Source of the DNA: Oscillospiraceae bacterium
GTDB lineage: Bacteria; Bacillota; Clostridia; Oscillospirales; Oscillospiraceae
Length of the DNA stretch: 64,000 nt
NCBI GenBank assembly: GCA_902798545.1
Contig: CADBWQ010000025.1
Location: 1 to 64,000, forward strand
Reading direction: 5' to 3'
Part shown: one piece after another, positions 31,862-42,191 of the stretch
Layout of the letters: every line of letters starts with the position of its first letter
How positions within the stretch are numbered: position 1 is the first letter of the stretch
Position numbers and translations under genes: made by a program
Notes under the pieces: generated by a model
Database searches by the model: none
What the model was told of the DNA's origin: nothing
What the model saw: only the letters and a program-made list of their open reading frames with translations

Positions 31862-31890
31862 TTGACATTTTTCCTCAATGTGTATATATT
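31862..31890 (+). promoter_or_regulatory. Sigma-A promoter of the peptide cassette
   Basis: TTGACA (31862-31867), 17-bp spacer, TATATT (31885-31890), about 45 bp before the precursor ribosome-binding site. Confidence 0.75.
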
Positions 31891-31942
31891 GAATTCAGAT
31901 TTATTCTGATAATTATTGCAGAAAATATCTGGAGGTATAAAC

Positions 31943-32116
31943 ATGAAGAAAGAACTCTATGAAGAACTGGATCTTGAGGTCATCCGCTTCCGTGCAGAAG
32001 ATATCATCACCACATCCGATGCAACGACTGAACAGGAACAGGATCCTGTTCCTGAAAAAGAAAAAGAGCCGGATCCCACAACAGGTAGAACCCCATTTGT
32101 CCAAGAAGTATCATAA
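31943..32116 (+). CDS. Candidate ribosomal peptide precursor (leader EVIRF..EDIITTS)
   Basis: A 57-aa peptide with strong ribosome-binding site TGGAGG. Residues 6-25 form a leader-like helix ending LEVIRFRAEDIITTSDA; residues 26-57 are a low-complexity acidic tail (Glu, Asp, Pro, Lys, Thr) ending in FVQEVS with a C-terminal serine. The leader block recurs in a second peptide at 41832 (16 of 22 residues identical over the aligned stretch) while the tails differ, the pattern expected of leader and core. The next genes encode a PqqD-like recognition protein, an S26-type peptidase, a nucleotidyltransferase and, convergently, an HPrK-like kinase. Precursor status is inference. Confidence 0.7.
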   Translation: MKKELYEELDLEVIRFRAEDIITTSDATTEQEQDPVPEKEKEPDPTTGRTPFVQEVS

Positions 32117-32180
32117 GGAACTAAATAACCTGATTGAATTTTATTCTTTCATTTGACCGACTAATTTCATTCTCACGACC

Positions 32181-32216
32181 GCAAAGGGCAGACAGCCTCA
32201 GCTGCCTGCCCTTTGC
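32181..32216 (+). promoter_or_regulatory. Attenuator-like hairpin between precursor and PqqD gene
   Basis: Perfect 11-bp stem GCAAAGGGCAG / CTGCCCTTTGC (32181-32191, 32206-32216) without a T-tract. Partial read-through or mRNA processing here would give more precursor than enzyme message. Confidence 0.6.
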
Positions 32217-32241
32217 ATTCAATGTCCAAGGAGAACAATCG

Positions 32242-32502
32242 ATGAAGCTAAAGAGAGAGTTTATCGTCCATCACGCCGGAGATGAGACTGTCCTGGTTCC
32301 GGCAGGCGGAGCCGGGTTTTCCGGCATTGTCAGAGGGAACCGCACGCTGGGTGCCATTCTGGACCTTCTGAAGGAAAACACAACGGAAGAAGCGCTGGTT
32401 GCGTCTCTCTCCGAGCGTTTTGATGCGCCGCAGGAAACCATCCGCCAGGATGTCAGACGCGTCCTCACGGAACTCCGTCAGATCGGAGCCCTGGATGGCT
32501 GA
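32242..32502 (+). CDS. PqqD-like peptide-recognition protein (RRE)
   Basis: An 86-aa protein of the PqqD family: three N-terminal beta strands (LKREFIVHHAGDETVLVPAG region, then FSGIVRGNRTLGAILDLL) followed by a helical part (TTEEALVASLSERFDAPQET; VRRVLTELRQIGAL). Stand-alone PqqD domains bind leader peptides and present the core to modifying enzymes. The start ATG at 32242 follows AAGGAGAACAATCG. It overlaps the next gene by 8 nt. The HN-like sequence VRGNRTLGAIL matches the usual LN.T...IW position. It is the best indication that the upstream peptide is a RiPP-type precursor. Confidence 0.85.
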   Translation: MKLKREFIVHHAGDETVLVPAGGAGFSGIVRGNRTLGAILDLLKENTTEEALVASLSERFDAPQETIRQDVRRVLTELRQIGALDG

Positions 32503-32917
32503 GGGCAGCTTCGAATCCGTCCTCGAGAGAGACGGGACGCTCATTTACACAAATGTCGGGGACAGCATGCTCCCCCTGATTCGTGAAGGGCGCGACCTGC
32601 TGGTCATCGAAAAAGCAGCCGGTCCTCTGAAGCGGCTTGACATTCCTCTCTACCGACGGAGCAGCGGCCAGTATGTCCTGCACCGGGTTCTTCAGGTGCG
32701 CTCCGACGGGTACGTGCTATGCGGCGACAACCGCCGAGATAGAGAATACGGCGTGACGGATCAGCAGATTCTCGGCGTGCTGACCGCCGTCATACGGGGC
32801 GGAAAGGAGATCTCCATGCAGTCACCCTTCTGTCGTCTCTATGCTCACCTGTGGTGCGACTTTTTCCCGCTTCGTGTGCTCCTTCTCCGGGCACGCAGCT
32901 TTCTGCGCAGACTCTGA
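32495..32917 (+). CDS. S26/S24-family peptidase-like protein (Ser/His dyad type)
   Basis: A 140-aa signal-peptidase-like protein. The nucleophile box is VGDSMLPLIREGRDLLVI (Ser24), and YVLHRVLQV (His63) replaces the Lys of bacterial type I signal peptidases, as in SipW/ER-type enzymes; CGDNR (76-80) is the GDN box. There is no N-terminal membrane helix; a hydrophobic, basic C-terminus (LWCDFFPLRVLLLRARSFLR) could touch the membrane. Start ATG 32495 overlaps the PqqD gene. In context it is the candidate leader protease, or a signal-peptidase relative adapted to this peptide. Function is inference. Confidence 0.75.
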   Translation: MAEGSFESVLERDGTLIYTNVGDSMLPLIREGRDLLVIEKAAGPLKRLDIPLYRRSSGQYVLHRVLQVRSDGYVLCGDNRRDREYGVTDQQILGVLTAVIRGGKEISMQSPFCRLYAHLWCDFFPLRVLLLRARSFLRRL

Positions 32918-32940
32918 CGTCAACGGAGGAATTCTGTTTC

Positions 32941-34086
32941 ATGTCTTCTGTCAACCTGCATCTCATTTATGACCTGATGTACCTGGTCAAATGCGCCATT
33001 GAGGGCATCGTCCCAGACAGCGTGCGGATCGCTTCCCTGGATCTGGACGCGCTGTATCAGCTTGCAGAAAACCATAACATGACCGCTGTCACCGCCATGG
33101 CGCTGGAATCAGCGGGGATCAGAGACGAAACATTCCTCGAGGCCAGAGGAAAAGCCATCCGGAAGGCTGTCTGCATGGAGACGGACATGCACCTGCTTAC
33201 TGCACAGCTGGAGGCAGACGGGATCTGGTACATGCCTCTCAAGGGTGCTGTTCTGAAAGACTATTATCCGAAGCTCGGCATGCGCCAGATGTCGGATTAT
33301 GACATTCTTTATGATTCATCCTTCCCTGACCGCGTGCGGGAGATTCTGACAGGCCTCGGATTTCACGTGGATGAGTATAACATGCACAATGTTGACAGCT
33401 ATGAGAAGCCGCCGGTCAGCCGCTTTGAGATGCACCGCCGTCTCTTCAGTCCCTATCTGGATGACAGACTCTATCACTACTACGAAAACGTCCGGGATCG
33501 CCTGCTGCCGGATGAGGGTACAGAATATGCGCTCCATTTCAGCCCGGAAGATTTCTATGTGTACATGCTCGCCCACGAGTATAAGCACTACATCACCGGC
33601 GGGAACGGCCTGCGCTTTCTGATGGACACGTTTGTGTTTCTCCGGCGCTTCGGCGAAACGCTGGACACACGGTATATTGATGCCGAACTGGAAAAGCTCG
33701 GGATCACGGAATTTGCAGAGCACAACCTGCATCTTGTCCGGCATCTGTTTGACGGTGCTCCCCTTTTGCCGGAAGAGGAAGACATGCTGGAATACATGGC
33801 GGAGGCCGGCACCTTCGGCACGGTGAACAACGCCGTCAGCAACCGCGTCGAAGCCCTGGGCGGCGGCATGAGAGGGAAACTCCGTTTCGCCAAGGAGAGG
33901 ATTCTGATTCCCATGAAGACTCTGGAATCCGCTTATCCGTTCTTCTACAGGCATAAGGCGCTCATCCCCTTCCTCTATCCATACCGCACATGGAAGCTCT
34001 TTTTCCGGAGTCGGGAGAAAGCGGCGGCGGAGCTGAAAGCCCTGCTGAGGACAGAGGGAAAAAAGAAGAAGCAGAACAAGGTTTAG
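32941..34086 (+). CDS. Nucleotidyltransferase family protein (NTP_transf_5 type)
   Basis: A 381-aa protein of the NTP_transf_5 group. The core is WYMPLKGAVLKDYYPK (97-111) followed by MRQMSDYDILYD (114-125) with the paired acidic residues of nucleotidyltransferases, then HEYKHYITGG (His-rich helix) and a helical C-terminal half ending in a basic tail. The start at 32941 follows GGAGGAATTCTGTTTC. Members are uncharacterised but recur in lasso-peptide and related RiPP loci next to HPrK-like kinases. They may transfer a nucleotide or phosphosugar to the peptide or kinase product. That role is inference. Confidence 0.82.
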   Translation: MSSVNLHLIYDLMYLVKCAIEGIVPDSVRIASLDLDALYQLAENHNMTAVTAMALESAGIRDETFLEARGKAIRKAVCMETDMHLLTAQLEADGIWYMPLKGAVLKDYYPKLGMRQMSDYDILYDSSFPDRVREILTGLGFHVDEYNMHNVDSYEKPPVSRFEMHRRLFSPYLDDRLYHYYENVRDRLLPDEGTEYALHFSPEDFYVYMLAHEYKHYITGGNGLRFLMDTFVFLRRFGETLDTRYIDAELEKLGITEFAEHNLHLVRHLFDGAPLLPEEEDMLEYMAEAGTFGTVNNAVSNRVEALGGGMRGKLRFAKERILIPMKTLESAYPFFYRHKALIPFLYPYRTWKLFFRSREKAAAELKALLRTEGKKKKQNKV

Positions 34087-34090
34087 AAGA

Positions 34091-34125
34091 AACGCACGCG
34101 GCCCGAATTGCGGATTGCGTGCGTT
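34091..34125. terminator. Hairpin at the convergent cassette junction
   Basis: Perfect 9-bp stem AACGCACGC / GCGTGCGTT (34091-34099, 34117-34125) between the nucleotidyltransferase stop and the opposing kinase gene; probably terminates in both directions. Confidence 0.55.
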
Positions 34126-34166
34126 CTCTGTCTCTGTTCAAAGCGGGTTCCGTGCCCGCCTGCTTT

Positions 34167-34910
34167 TCACTGTTCCTGTTCAGGCTCAGCCATGGTGCGG
34201 TAAGACAGTTCTGCCGCGCTGCGGTCCATATTGCAGCCCAGCCGGAAAAAGCGGACCTTCATCCGATCGATCAGTGTCAGCGTTTTTGCCAGAGCAGTCG
34301 GATCGGACGGACGATAGATCTGCTGCAGGAGTTCCGGCAGTGCCTCTGTCCCTGATATTTCCCGGATATGATTCTCCTGCGCCCGTTCGAGAATGCAGAT
34401 GCTTTTCAGCGGAACTGAGATATTCGCGCTCAGGCGGTGTTTTCCGTCCCAGGGCGTCCCGCAGGCCACTACCGATCCATCCGGGAGAATCCGGATCAGC
34501 GGCTTGTCATCGTTGACCATCACTGCCCGCTCTCCCAGCAGTTTCCGCCACAGGCGGGTGTGCGTACTCTTCCCGGTCCCGCTCCTTGCGGTGAACAGAT
34601 ATGCAGCCCCATCCACCGCAATCACCGAGCCATGGAACAGAAATGCATCATAGTCCGGCATCTTCTCCGCGATCCTGCGGTAAACGGCGAGCGTCTCCAG
34701 ATAATCCGCGGCGAAGTGACGGACCGGAATGCCCTCCACCTCATCCTCCCTTGCGGACTTCAGCCTCTCGAACTCCAGATCAGACTGCCGGATCTCCACG
34801 GTGAAGTCCTCCGCGGCATCCGTCTCATATCCGGCGCAGTAGGTATGGATCATCGGATAAATCGAAGATATTTTCACTGTTCTGCCAGCAAAGCAGTAGT
34901 TCTGAACCAT
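34167..34910 (-). CDS. HPr-kinase-like protein (peptide/serine kinase family)
   Basis: A 247-aa P-loop kinase. An N-terminal beta-rich half is followed by Walker A ARSGTGKSTHTRLW (108-121), NDDKPLIR (133-140) and GTPWDGKHRL (151-160), the set seen in HPrK-related kinases of RiPP clusters. Well-studied relatives phosphorylate the C-terminal serine of lasso peptides. It lacks the catabolite-repression HPr kinase N-terminal domain. It is convergent with the precursor cassette, unlike the usual co-directional order, and presumably has its own promoter upstream of 34910. The C-terminal serine of the 57-aa peptide is a plausible acceptor; that is inference. Confidence 0.8.
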   Translation of the reverse strand: MVQNYCFAGRTVKISSIYPMIHTYCAGYETDAAEDFTVEIRQSDLEFERLKSAREDEVEGIPVRHFAADYLETLAVYRRIAEKMPDYDAFLFHGSVIAVDGAAYLFTARSGTGKSTHTRLWRKLLGERAVMVNDDKPLIRILPDGSVVACGTPWDGKHRLSANISVPLKSICILERAQENHIREISGTEALPELLQQIYRPSDPTALAKTLTLIDRMKVRFFRLGCNMDRSAAELSYRTMAEPEQEQ

Positions 34911-41831: not shown

Positions 41832-42191
41832 ATGAAAACAACAACAGAAGAAAAGAAGCCCTACGAAGGACTGGAATTTGAGGTAATCCGCTTCGTCACT
41901 GAAGATATCATCACAACGTCGAACGCAAGCGAAGACGACGACAAGGACGACAAGGACCAGCCGGACGACGACGGCGGCAACGTCGATCCGCAGGCTTCCC
42001 CGGAGCCCTCACCTGAAACGCCAACCACGATCACCGTCACTGGCACTTTTAATAATGATGATACTGATACTGTCGAAGTCACCACTAAAACTCTTACGTT
42101 CCTTTATGATAACGGAGCAGCATATTTTTATCGGGACGAAGACGGAAAACAATGGTGGACATTCGATGGGGAGGCCTTCTTTATTGACTAG
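41832..42191 (+). CDS. Second candidate peptide precursor with shared leader
   Basis: A 119-aa acidic protein. Residues 11-32 (YEGLEFEVIRF.TEDIITTSNA) match the leader of the 57-aa peptide at 31943. Residues 34-63 are Asp/Pro-rich spacer, and 64-119 form a different, Thr/Asp/aromatic-rich C-terminal part (TVEVTTKTLTFLYDNGAAYF; KQWWTFDGEAFFID). It is monocistronic, with a perfect promoter, a GAAAGGGG ribosome-binding site and a terminator, and no modifying genes adjacent. Most likely processed in trans by the cassette at 32.2-34.9 kb. The strong promoter points to an abundant product. Confidence 0.7.
   Translation: MKTTTEEKKPYEGLEFEVIRFVTEDIITTSNASEDDDKDDKDQPDDDGGNVDPQASPEPSPETPTTITVTGTFNNDDTDTVEVTTKTLTFLYDNGAAYFYRDEDGKQWWTFDGEAFFID

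Follow-up and report, generated by a model that had tools for sequence, protein, structure and literature searches.

A probable leader-guided peptide maturation cassette in an Oscillospiraceae bacterium and its proposed link, in relatives, to secreted partner proteins

Analysis of a 64,000-nucleotide stretch of an Oscillospiraceae bacterium, probably from the gut or rumen (GenBank assembly GCA_902798545.1, contig CADBWQ010000025.1, positions 1 to 64,000; hereafter, the window), supported by comparison with related genomes, revealed a cassette of five genes encoding a leader peptide, a stand-alone PqqD protein, an S26-like Ser/His peptidase, a nucleotidyltransferase-like NTP_transf_5 protein and an HPrK/ScmC-like kinase. 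We propose, with moderate confidence, that the cassette carries out the leader-guided maturation of peptides, which are cut, tailored, exported and then work together with Sec-secreted partner proteins outside the cell. The machinery is well supported, and the role of the partners is suggested by relatives of the window organism. With a PqqD-type protein, a conserved leader and a variable region following it, the system has the sequence hallmarks of a ribosomally synthesized and posttranslationally modified peptide (RiPP) system of the type that depends on a RiPP recognition element (RRE). Its individual parts are familiar; what appears to be new within RRE-dependent peptide maturation is how they are combined and how the peptides pair with secreted proteins, and there is a real chance that the system is something categorically new.

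The first gene of the cassette (positions 31943-32116, forward strand) encodes a peptide of 57 amino acids, in which a leader ending in YEELDLEVIRFRAEDIITTS is followed by an acidic, Pro-containing tail of 32 residues; it matches the leader model at an E value of 1.0e-12 in its own genome, peptide 1 itself being included in that model. Downstream on the same strand lie the genes for the PqqD protein, of the RRE-type leader-binding family (32242-32502, 86 amino acids; PF05402, E 3.6e-13), the S26-like peptidase (32495-32917, 140 amino acids, with no visible N-terminal hydrophobic anchor) and the NTP_transf_5 protein (32941-34086, 381 amino acids; E 3.2e-41), and the kinase gene (34167-34910, reverse strand, 247 amino acids) converges on them. 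These five open reading frames (ORFs) and their positions agree with a preliminary description of this DNA made from the sequence alone. The peptidase and the kinase are weak by sequence models (sigpep_I_arch at 8.2e-5 and Peptidase_S24 at 0.014 for the former; for the latter a best curated match, ScmC, at 1.3e-7, under the ScmC cut-off), yet their identity is clear because the catalytic residues are conserved in relatives: in the aligned peptidases the catalytic Ser, the His and the Gly and Asp of the Gly-Asp box are each kept in 63/63, and in the aligned kinases His and Lys are kept in 92/92 and Asp in 91/91. Two Asp residues are likewise kept in 67/67 aligned NTP_transf_5 relatives. The predicted structure of the peptidase (predicted local distance difference test, pLDDT, 89.7) has the LexA/UmuD/signal-peptidase fold and is matched to UmuD, LexA and the human signal peptidase complex with a probability of 1.00, with a best E value of 1.5e-3 and thus none at or below 0.001. 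By its Ser, general base, Gly-Asp box and fold, the enzyme belongs to the S26/S24 clan, in which the Ser/His pair is found in SipW- and endoplasmic reticulum-type signal peptidases. It is the probable leader peptidase and would act in the cytosol.

The grouping of the five genes is not due to chance, because the genes recur together elsewhere with their catalytic residues kept. A kinase scan of bacterial and archaeal genomes gave 363 relatives, and the best 80 loci, mostly from rumen or gut Clostridia, were kept; many of them are cut by contig ends, and 34 have at least 4 kb on either side of the kinase gene. Within this distance of the kinase gene, PqqD was found at 64 of the 80 loci, the peptidase at 59, NTP_transf_5 at 40 and an ABC-exporter-like ORF at 50; the corresponding counts for the 34 full loci were 28, 23, 20 and 25, with a leader peptide at 17, and PqqD, peptidase and NTP_transf_5 were all present at 19. 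All four ABC exporters scanned consist of ABC_membrane and ABC_tran, with no peptidase domain. Conservation of the gene set together with EDIITTS-type leader peptides in related genomes, which the preliminary description had suggested as a check, was thus borne out, and the statement there that a transporter is absent holds for the window cassette but not in general.

No other family accompanies the kinase regularly among the neighbor ORFs scanned. A Pfam scan of 135 other neighbor ORFs of 150-900 amino acids at the 34 loci matched 115 families, of which the 25 commonest were viewed; none of the families had more than 2 members among the 135 ORFs, Radical_SAM being one that reached 2, and YcaO, LanC, Asn-synthetase, transglutaminase or sensor-kinase families did not appear as regular companions among the families viewed, single occurrences being possible. 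The Asn-synthetase-like motif SGGxDS occurs at 1/80 related loci, by motif only, and PF00733, the family of Asn-synthase-like lasso cyclases, has no match on the window contig at E values up to 0.001 and six on other contigs, in keeping with the lack of a lasso cyclase reported previously. ORFs with a CxxxCxxC motif lie near the kinase at 5/80 loci, and the three that were scanned are all SPASM maturases. At these three of the 80 loci (L076, L079 and L098) the radical SAM/SPASM maturase adjoins the kinase gene, and Cys residues occur in the tails after ITNS; the earlier claim that ring-forming enzymes are absent is supported as regards regular companions but does not extend to every related locus.

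The leader is the common element of the precursors. It is about 24 residues long and ends in ED[VI]ITxS; E18, D19, I21 and S24 are invariant in 26 aligned peptides, and conservation stops there. In a sample of 392 genomes of Clostridia, the class of the window organism, the leader was found in 40 and the kinase in 105, both together in 39 (Fisher 3e-24). Leader genes are scattered within genomes, with 22 matches in genome G253 (some of them partial) and 11 in G074. The window genome itself has three, at 31943-32116, at 41832-42191 and at 169-444 of contig 1, at the contig start. The second of these, overlooked in the preliminary description, which had listed only the peptide at 31943 as precursor, is encoded on the forward strand about 7 kb from the machinery; in this protein of 119 amino acids the leader, YEGLEFEVIRFVTEDIITTS, is followed by an acidic linker and then by a longer tail (E 1.3e-11 with the model that includes it, 7.9e-10 with model A1, which excludes it).

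In relatives, the leader genes typically follow genes for secreted proteins. Neighbors were counted at 160 loci, namely the 80 kinase loci and 80 leader-match regions (some leader matches were left out), loci of related genomes not being independent. Among 117 distinct leader genes, 112 are preceded by 600 bases or more of sequence. In 106 of these 112, an ORF of at least 150 amino acids on the same strand ends within 400 bases upstream, and in 91 it ends within 60 bases. A signal peptide, by a simple and permissive rule, is predicted in 72 of the 80 complete partners within 60 bases versus 177 of 652 other ORFs at the same loci (p 2e-28). The N-terminal parts of the partners are diverse, with CAP and PKD domains, BspA-type leucine-rich repeats, laminin-G-like domains and InlB-type repeats among 10 proteins searched with Pfam; five of the 10 have no match at all, and the protein end is covered in none. 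No NCBIfam model reaches its cut-off on six C-terminal pieces. Single-linkage clustering of the last 110 residues gave groups of 38, 19, 9, 4, 3 and 2 and 16 singletons. The partners resemble sortase/LPXTG substrates and other Gram-positive display proteins in that they are secreted through Sec and have a special C-terminal region; they differ in that a separate leader peptide gene follows the partner and in that simple rules find an LPXTG-like motif in 1/91 and a C-terminal membrane segment in 1/91. The type I C-terminal domain is modeled (pLDDT 86.6) as a beta-sandwich followed by two helices, and the model found nothing convincing in the PDB (best E 0.017). It occurs in 16/392 genomes, and the kinase is present in 14 of these 16; the other two, G292 and G338, share a genus. 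A leader-like peptide follows 16 of the 26 type I ORFs (30 loci) that have at least 300 bases downstream, by loose thresholds and with one peptide accepted by eye.

The tail of each peptide is correlated with the C-terminal domain of its neighbor. Across 60 of the 91 pairs (partner of at least 330 amino acids, motif fitted, domain taken as the last 110 residues), tail similarity and C-terminal domain similarity correlate with r 0.64, a value reached in 0/2000 permutations overall and in 0/2000 within genomes. The correlation of the tail with the leader (r 0.39) and with the N-terminal part of the partner (r 0.33) is lower, and the partial r is 0.59 for the C-terminal domain and 0.10 for the N-terminal part. 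In a single genome, G074, eight pairs give r 0.94 (1/2000 permutations).

Tail-like sequences are also found on separate proteins. At several loci of relatives, the tail is resembled by the end of a lipoprotein or of a membrane-anchored protein whose long linker is rich in Ser, Thr, Pro and Glu: at L035 the tail is GDIELPEQPING and the lipoprotein ends in GDILLPEVP, and tail-like ends are seen at L107 (DIELPELP / GDIELPELP) and L049 (AIQLPLAP / AIQLPVAP). An LP-type motif, defined after inspection of the ends, lies in the last 14 residues of 16/28 anchored linker ORFs near the kinase, chosen by anchor and linker composition, versus 40/1235 other ORFs; the count is 19/28 if the mature N terminus is considered in ORFs with a C-terminal membrane segment. 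In the peptide tails the motif alone is weak (10/31 versus 3.5 expected by shuffling). A motif-free score of tail against anchored end of the same locus placed 9 of 17 comparisons at or below a fraction of 0.012 of the control C termini, 11 below 0.05 and 5 above 0.1, with a combined p of 4e-16, the anchored ends being hand-picked, some loci near duplicates and three loci scored at the N terminus after inspection. At L047 (4083-4625), a lipoprotein frame continues into a full leader with the tail ELPIIPIR at its C terminus.

Family knowledge and the correlation described above point to a sequence of steps. PqqD would bind the common leader, the kinase and the NTP_transf_5 protein would tailor the precursor before or during cleavage, the S26-like peptidase would cut it, and in many relatives the peptidase-free ABC exporter would release the tail; a single machinery could serve several precursors encoded at scattered sites. 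In relatives, the released tail may work outside the cell with the adjacently encoded Sec-secreted protein, most likely by docking on its C-terminal domain, and the pairing suggests a peptide-based system that builds or controls the cell surface. We speculate further, as a tentative extension with support entirely from relatives, that peptides are exchanged on the Gram-positive surface: exported, tailored ligands would fit the C-terminal domain of the adjacently encoded secreted proteins, the same ligand motif would sit on the free end of the membrane-anchored linker proteins, and anchored and free copies would compete, tethering or releasing the secreted protein.

The site of cleavage can be approached through the 90 peptides that fit the motif fixing the leader end. 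Position -1 is Ser in 89 of them, -3 is Thr in 78 and +1 is Gly in 37, the motif itself restricting -1 and -3 to few residues. Signal peptidases follow a -3/-1 small-residue rule, which this pattern resembles, and cleavage after TxS, in the manner of a signal peptidase, is therefore most likely on the basis of these alignments. The tails that follow are 6-44 residues long (median 16), a quarter having at most 11 residues. Since Ser or Thr is terminal in 2/90 tails and 15/90 have no Ser, Thr or Tyr at all, the lasso-style phosphorylation of a C-terminal Ser cannot, from the tail sequences, be the general rule here; peptide 1 of the window does end in Ser, and the phosphorylated or nucleotidylated linear product suggested previously is possible. 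The lack of hydroxyl residues in these 15 tails also lends some weight to the view that TxS is kept in the product, with a cut before TxS and modification of its Thr/Ser by the kinase and NTP_transf_5 to give an N-terminal phospho- or sugar-tagged peptide: these are the only hydroxyl residues common to most precursors, and PsmK/PsmN provide a precedent on a lasso peptide (PMC9266682, also the source of the PadeK precedent). We regard this view as possible and somewhat doubtful, because the Ser at -1 and the Thr at -3, frequently with Gly at +1, agree better with cleavage behind TxS, and relatives from the genus of the window organism retain the kinase and NTP_transf_5 though their leaders lack ITTS.

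Three other explanations bear on the proposed link with secreted partners. The cassette could be an ordinary RiPP cluster, antimicrobial or signaling, akin to lasso tailoring systems, with secreted neighbors a matter of operon convenience and no functional tie. A conserved leader with a variable tail is RiPP-like, a radical SAM/SPASM maturase is found at the three loci mentioned above, and PqqD, the HPrK-like kinase and the nucleotidyltransferase are described as lasso accessories in PMC9266682 and PMC7533575, the latter giving frequencies of about 58 per cent for HPr kinase, 46 per cent for PqqD and 30 per cent for nucleotidyltransferase in the rumen genomes analyzed. We consider such a cluster unlikely, as the precursors occur in many scattered copies beside different secreted proteins, the tail tracks the C-terminal domain of its neighbor, and no regulator or immunity gene is regular among the 135 neighbor ORFs (25 commonest families viewed). 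A purely genetic explanation, in which the peptide gene recombines as a unit with the adjoining 3' end of the secreted-protein gene and the products do not physically interact, would fit the close adjacency of the segments and the paralogous pairs within genomes, and joint recombination could explain part of the correlation; as a full account it seems to us rather improbable, since it leaves unexplained both the persistence of adjacency across many families and the tail-like ends of separate anchored proteins. That the cassette is a degenerate lasso cluster that has lost its cyclase is highly improbable. Accessory genes are shared, and the cassette leader starts in a way that resembles YxxPxL, the motif of lasso leaders. 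Against this, the set is found again and again across many genomes, an Asn-synthetase-like motif occurs at only 1/80 loci, the leader peptidase is of another type, and the shortest quarter of the tails is presumably too short for a lasso. The possibility of a distant cyclase led to one candidate, an Asn_synthase match in the window organism's own genome (contig C10, L160), which was rejected, there being no PqqD, kinase, peptidase or NTP_transf_5 beside it.

Several observations weigh against leader-guided maturation of peptides with secreted partners. Among the 105 genomes with the kinase, 66 have no leader match; leaders are short, and the kinases include distant ones. Genome G292 has leaders and C-terminal-domain proteins and no kinase or peptidase match, perhaps owing to an assembly gap. 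No peptide was found downstream of 10 of the 26 type I ORFs, one of the ten directly preceding a PqqD gene, and in G253 the correlation of tail and domain is moderate (seven pairs, r 0.64, 67/2000 permutations). The window cassette itself has no secreted partner or exporter beside it. The nearest upstream candidate, P0006 (30497-31774), ends 168 bases before the first peptide gene. In the window genome, neither the type I C-terminal domain nor an ABC exporter closely related to that of the system was found; the ABC matches there are generic, the best at 39 per cent over 114 residues. In three relatives from the same genus (G022, G031 and G018), the kinase, PqqD, peptidase and NTP_transf_5 are likewise present, along with one or two leader-like peptides; the ITTS block is missing from these leaders, and there is no system-type ABC exporter in the stretches examined. 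The window cassette is thus a reduced or divergent version of the system, and its substrates may depend on a different ABC exporter and work without a partner.

P0006 was considered as a part of the system because of its signal peptide, Pro-containing mature start and C-terminal membrane segment, and was rejected: homologs are present in 60/61 genomes of the genus, and the similarity of its mature start to the window tail is not beyond control (fraction 0.089). As these homologs are far more widespread than close relatives of the cassette NTP_transf_5, P0006 is probably unrelated to the cassette. No secreted partner adjoins leader protein 2 (41832-42191).

Lasso peptide clusters with tailoring enzymes (paeninodin with PadeK, ThcoK, pseudomycoidin with PsmK/PsmN) are the nearest known systems. 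They share with the cassette a stand-alone PqqD, an HPrK-like kinase with its His and Lys and a nucleotidyltransferase-like protein, and an ABC exporter is found in many cassette relatives as well. The cassette differs in having no lasso cyclase and in the S26-like Ser/His peptidase that probably takes the place of the transglutaminase-like protease; the wider family differs in that its tails rarely end in Ser and its many scattered precursors adjoin secreted proteins. The HPr-rel-A (TIGR04352/TIGR04353) and SynChlorMet (ScmC, TIGR04249) systems also combine an HprK-related kinase with a PqqD-type protein, with weak matches to the cassette: its kinase and PqqD fall below the TIGR04352 and TIGR04353 cut-offs (14.1 versus 200 and 23.9 versus 35 bits, respectively), and the kinase scores 31.3 bits versus the ScmC cut-off of 125. 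Seven window neighbors were scanned, comprising a WYL-domain regulator, a lysine exporter, two HGD-D proteins, HypA, an oxidoreductase and a DUF5050 protein; they are metabolic, regulatory or uncharacterized genes, and none is a radical SAM gene, which separates the cassette from SynChlorMet and, in the lack of a radical SAM/SPASM maturase, from sactipeptide and ranthipeptide clusters. The peptidase shares its fold with signal peptidase I/SipW-type enzymes and with S24 proteins such as LexA/UmuD; it is short, without a visible anchor, and encoded with a leader binder. A literature search of titles and opening lines, with most subscription papers and bioRxiv preprints outside its scope, found no description of the leader or of the pairing with secreted proteins.

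The proposed system joins two separate fields, one concerned with peptide maturation of the RiPP type and the other with how large secreted proteins are displayed or controlled. As the kinase family is common in the Clostridia sample, the system may account for part of the PqqD, HPrK-like and nucleotidyltransferase genes that are now called lasso accessories. The leader ED[VI]ITxS with a secreted protein encoded upstream provides a search rule for further partner pairs.

A promoter-like site, TTGACA-17-TATATT (31862-31890, forward strand), lies upstream of the peptide gene and has 11/12 consensus bases, in agreement with the promoter noted previously; three such sites occur in the stretch versus 1.9 in shuffles, which makes the site alone weak evidence. 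Between the peptide and PqqD genes is a long GC-rich hairpin with no T-run (32181-32216, forward strand). The 146 bases around it fold with a z-score of -2.84, with equally stable shuffles in 3/200, and the hairpin may be a possible point of mRNA processing or attenuation.

Some loci of relatives depart from the usual arrangement. At L166 (4058-7039), one frame of 993 amino acids comprises the peptidase domain and a large secreted-looking protein with a membrane segment at its end; this is either a fusion or a frame that merely runs on. Six loci from the genus of the window organism (L365, L366, L367, L369, L370 and L373) are sister cassettes with the kinase, PqqD and NTP_transf_5 and without the S26 peptidase, and four of the six have an ABC exporter. 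At all of these except L367, a large secreted-looking protein (about 1400-1800 amino acids) is encoded before the kinase, and a peptide ORF with Asp-rich stretches, dockerin-like by eye, lies between the two. Small membrane-anchored proteins with acidic tails are encoded near several of the sister cassettes.

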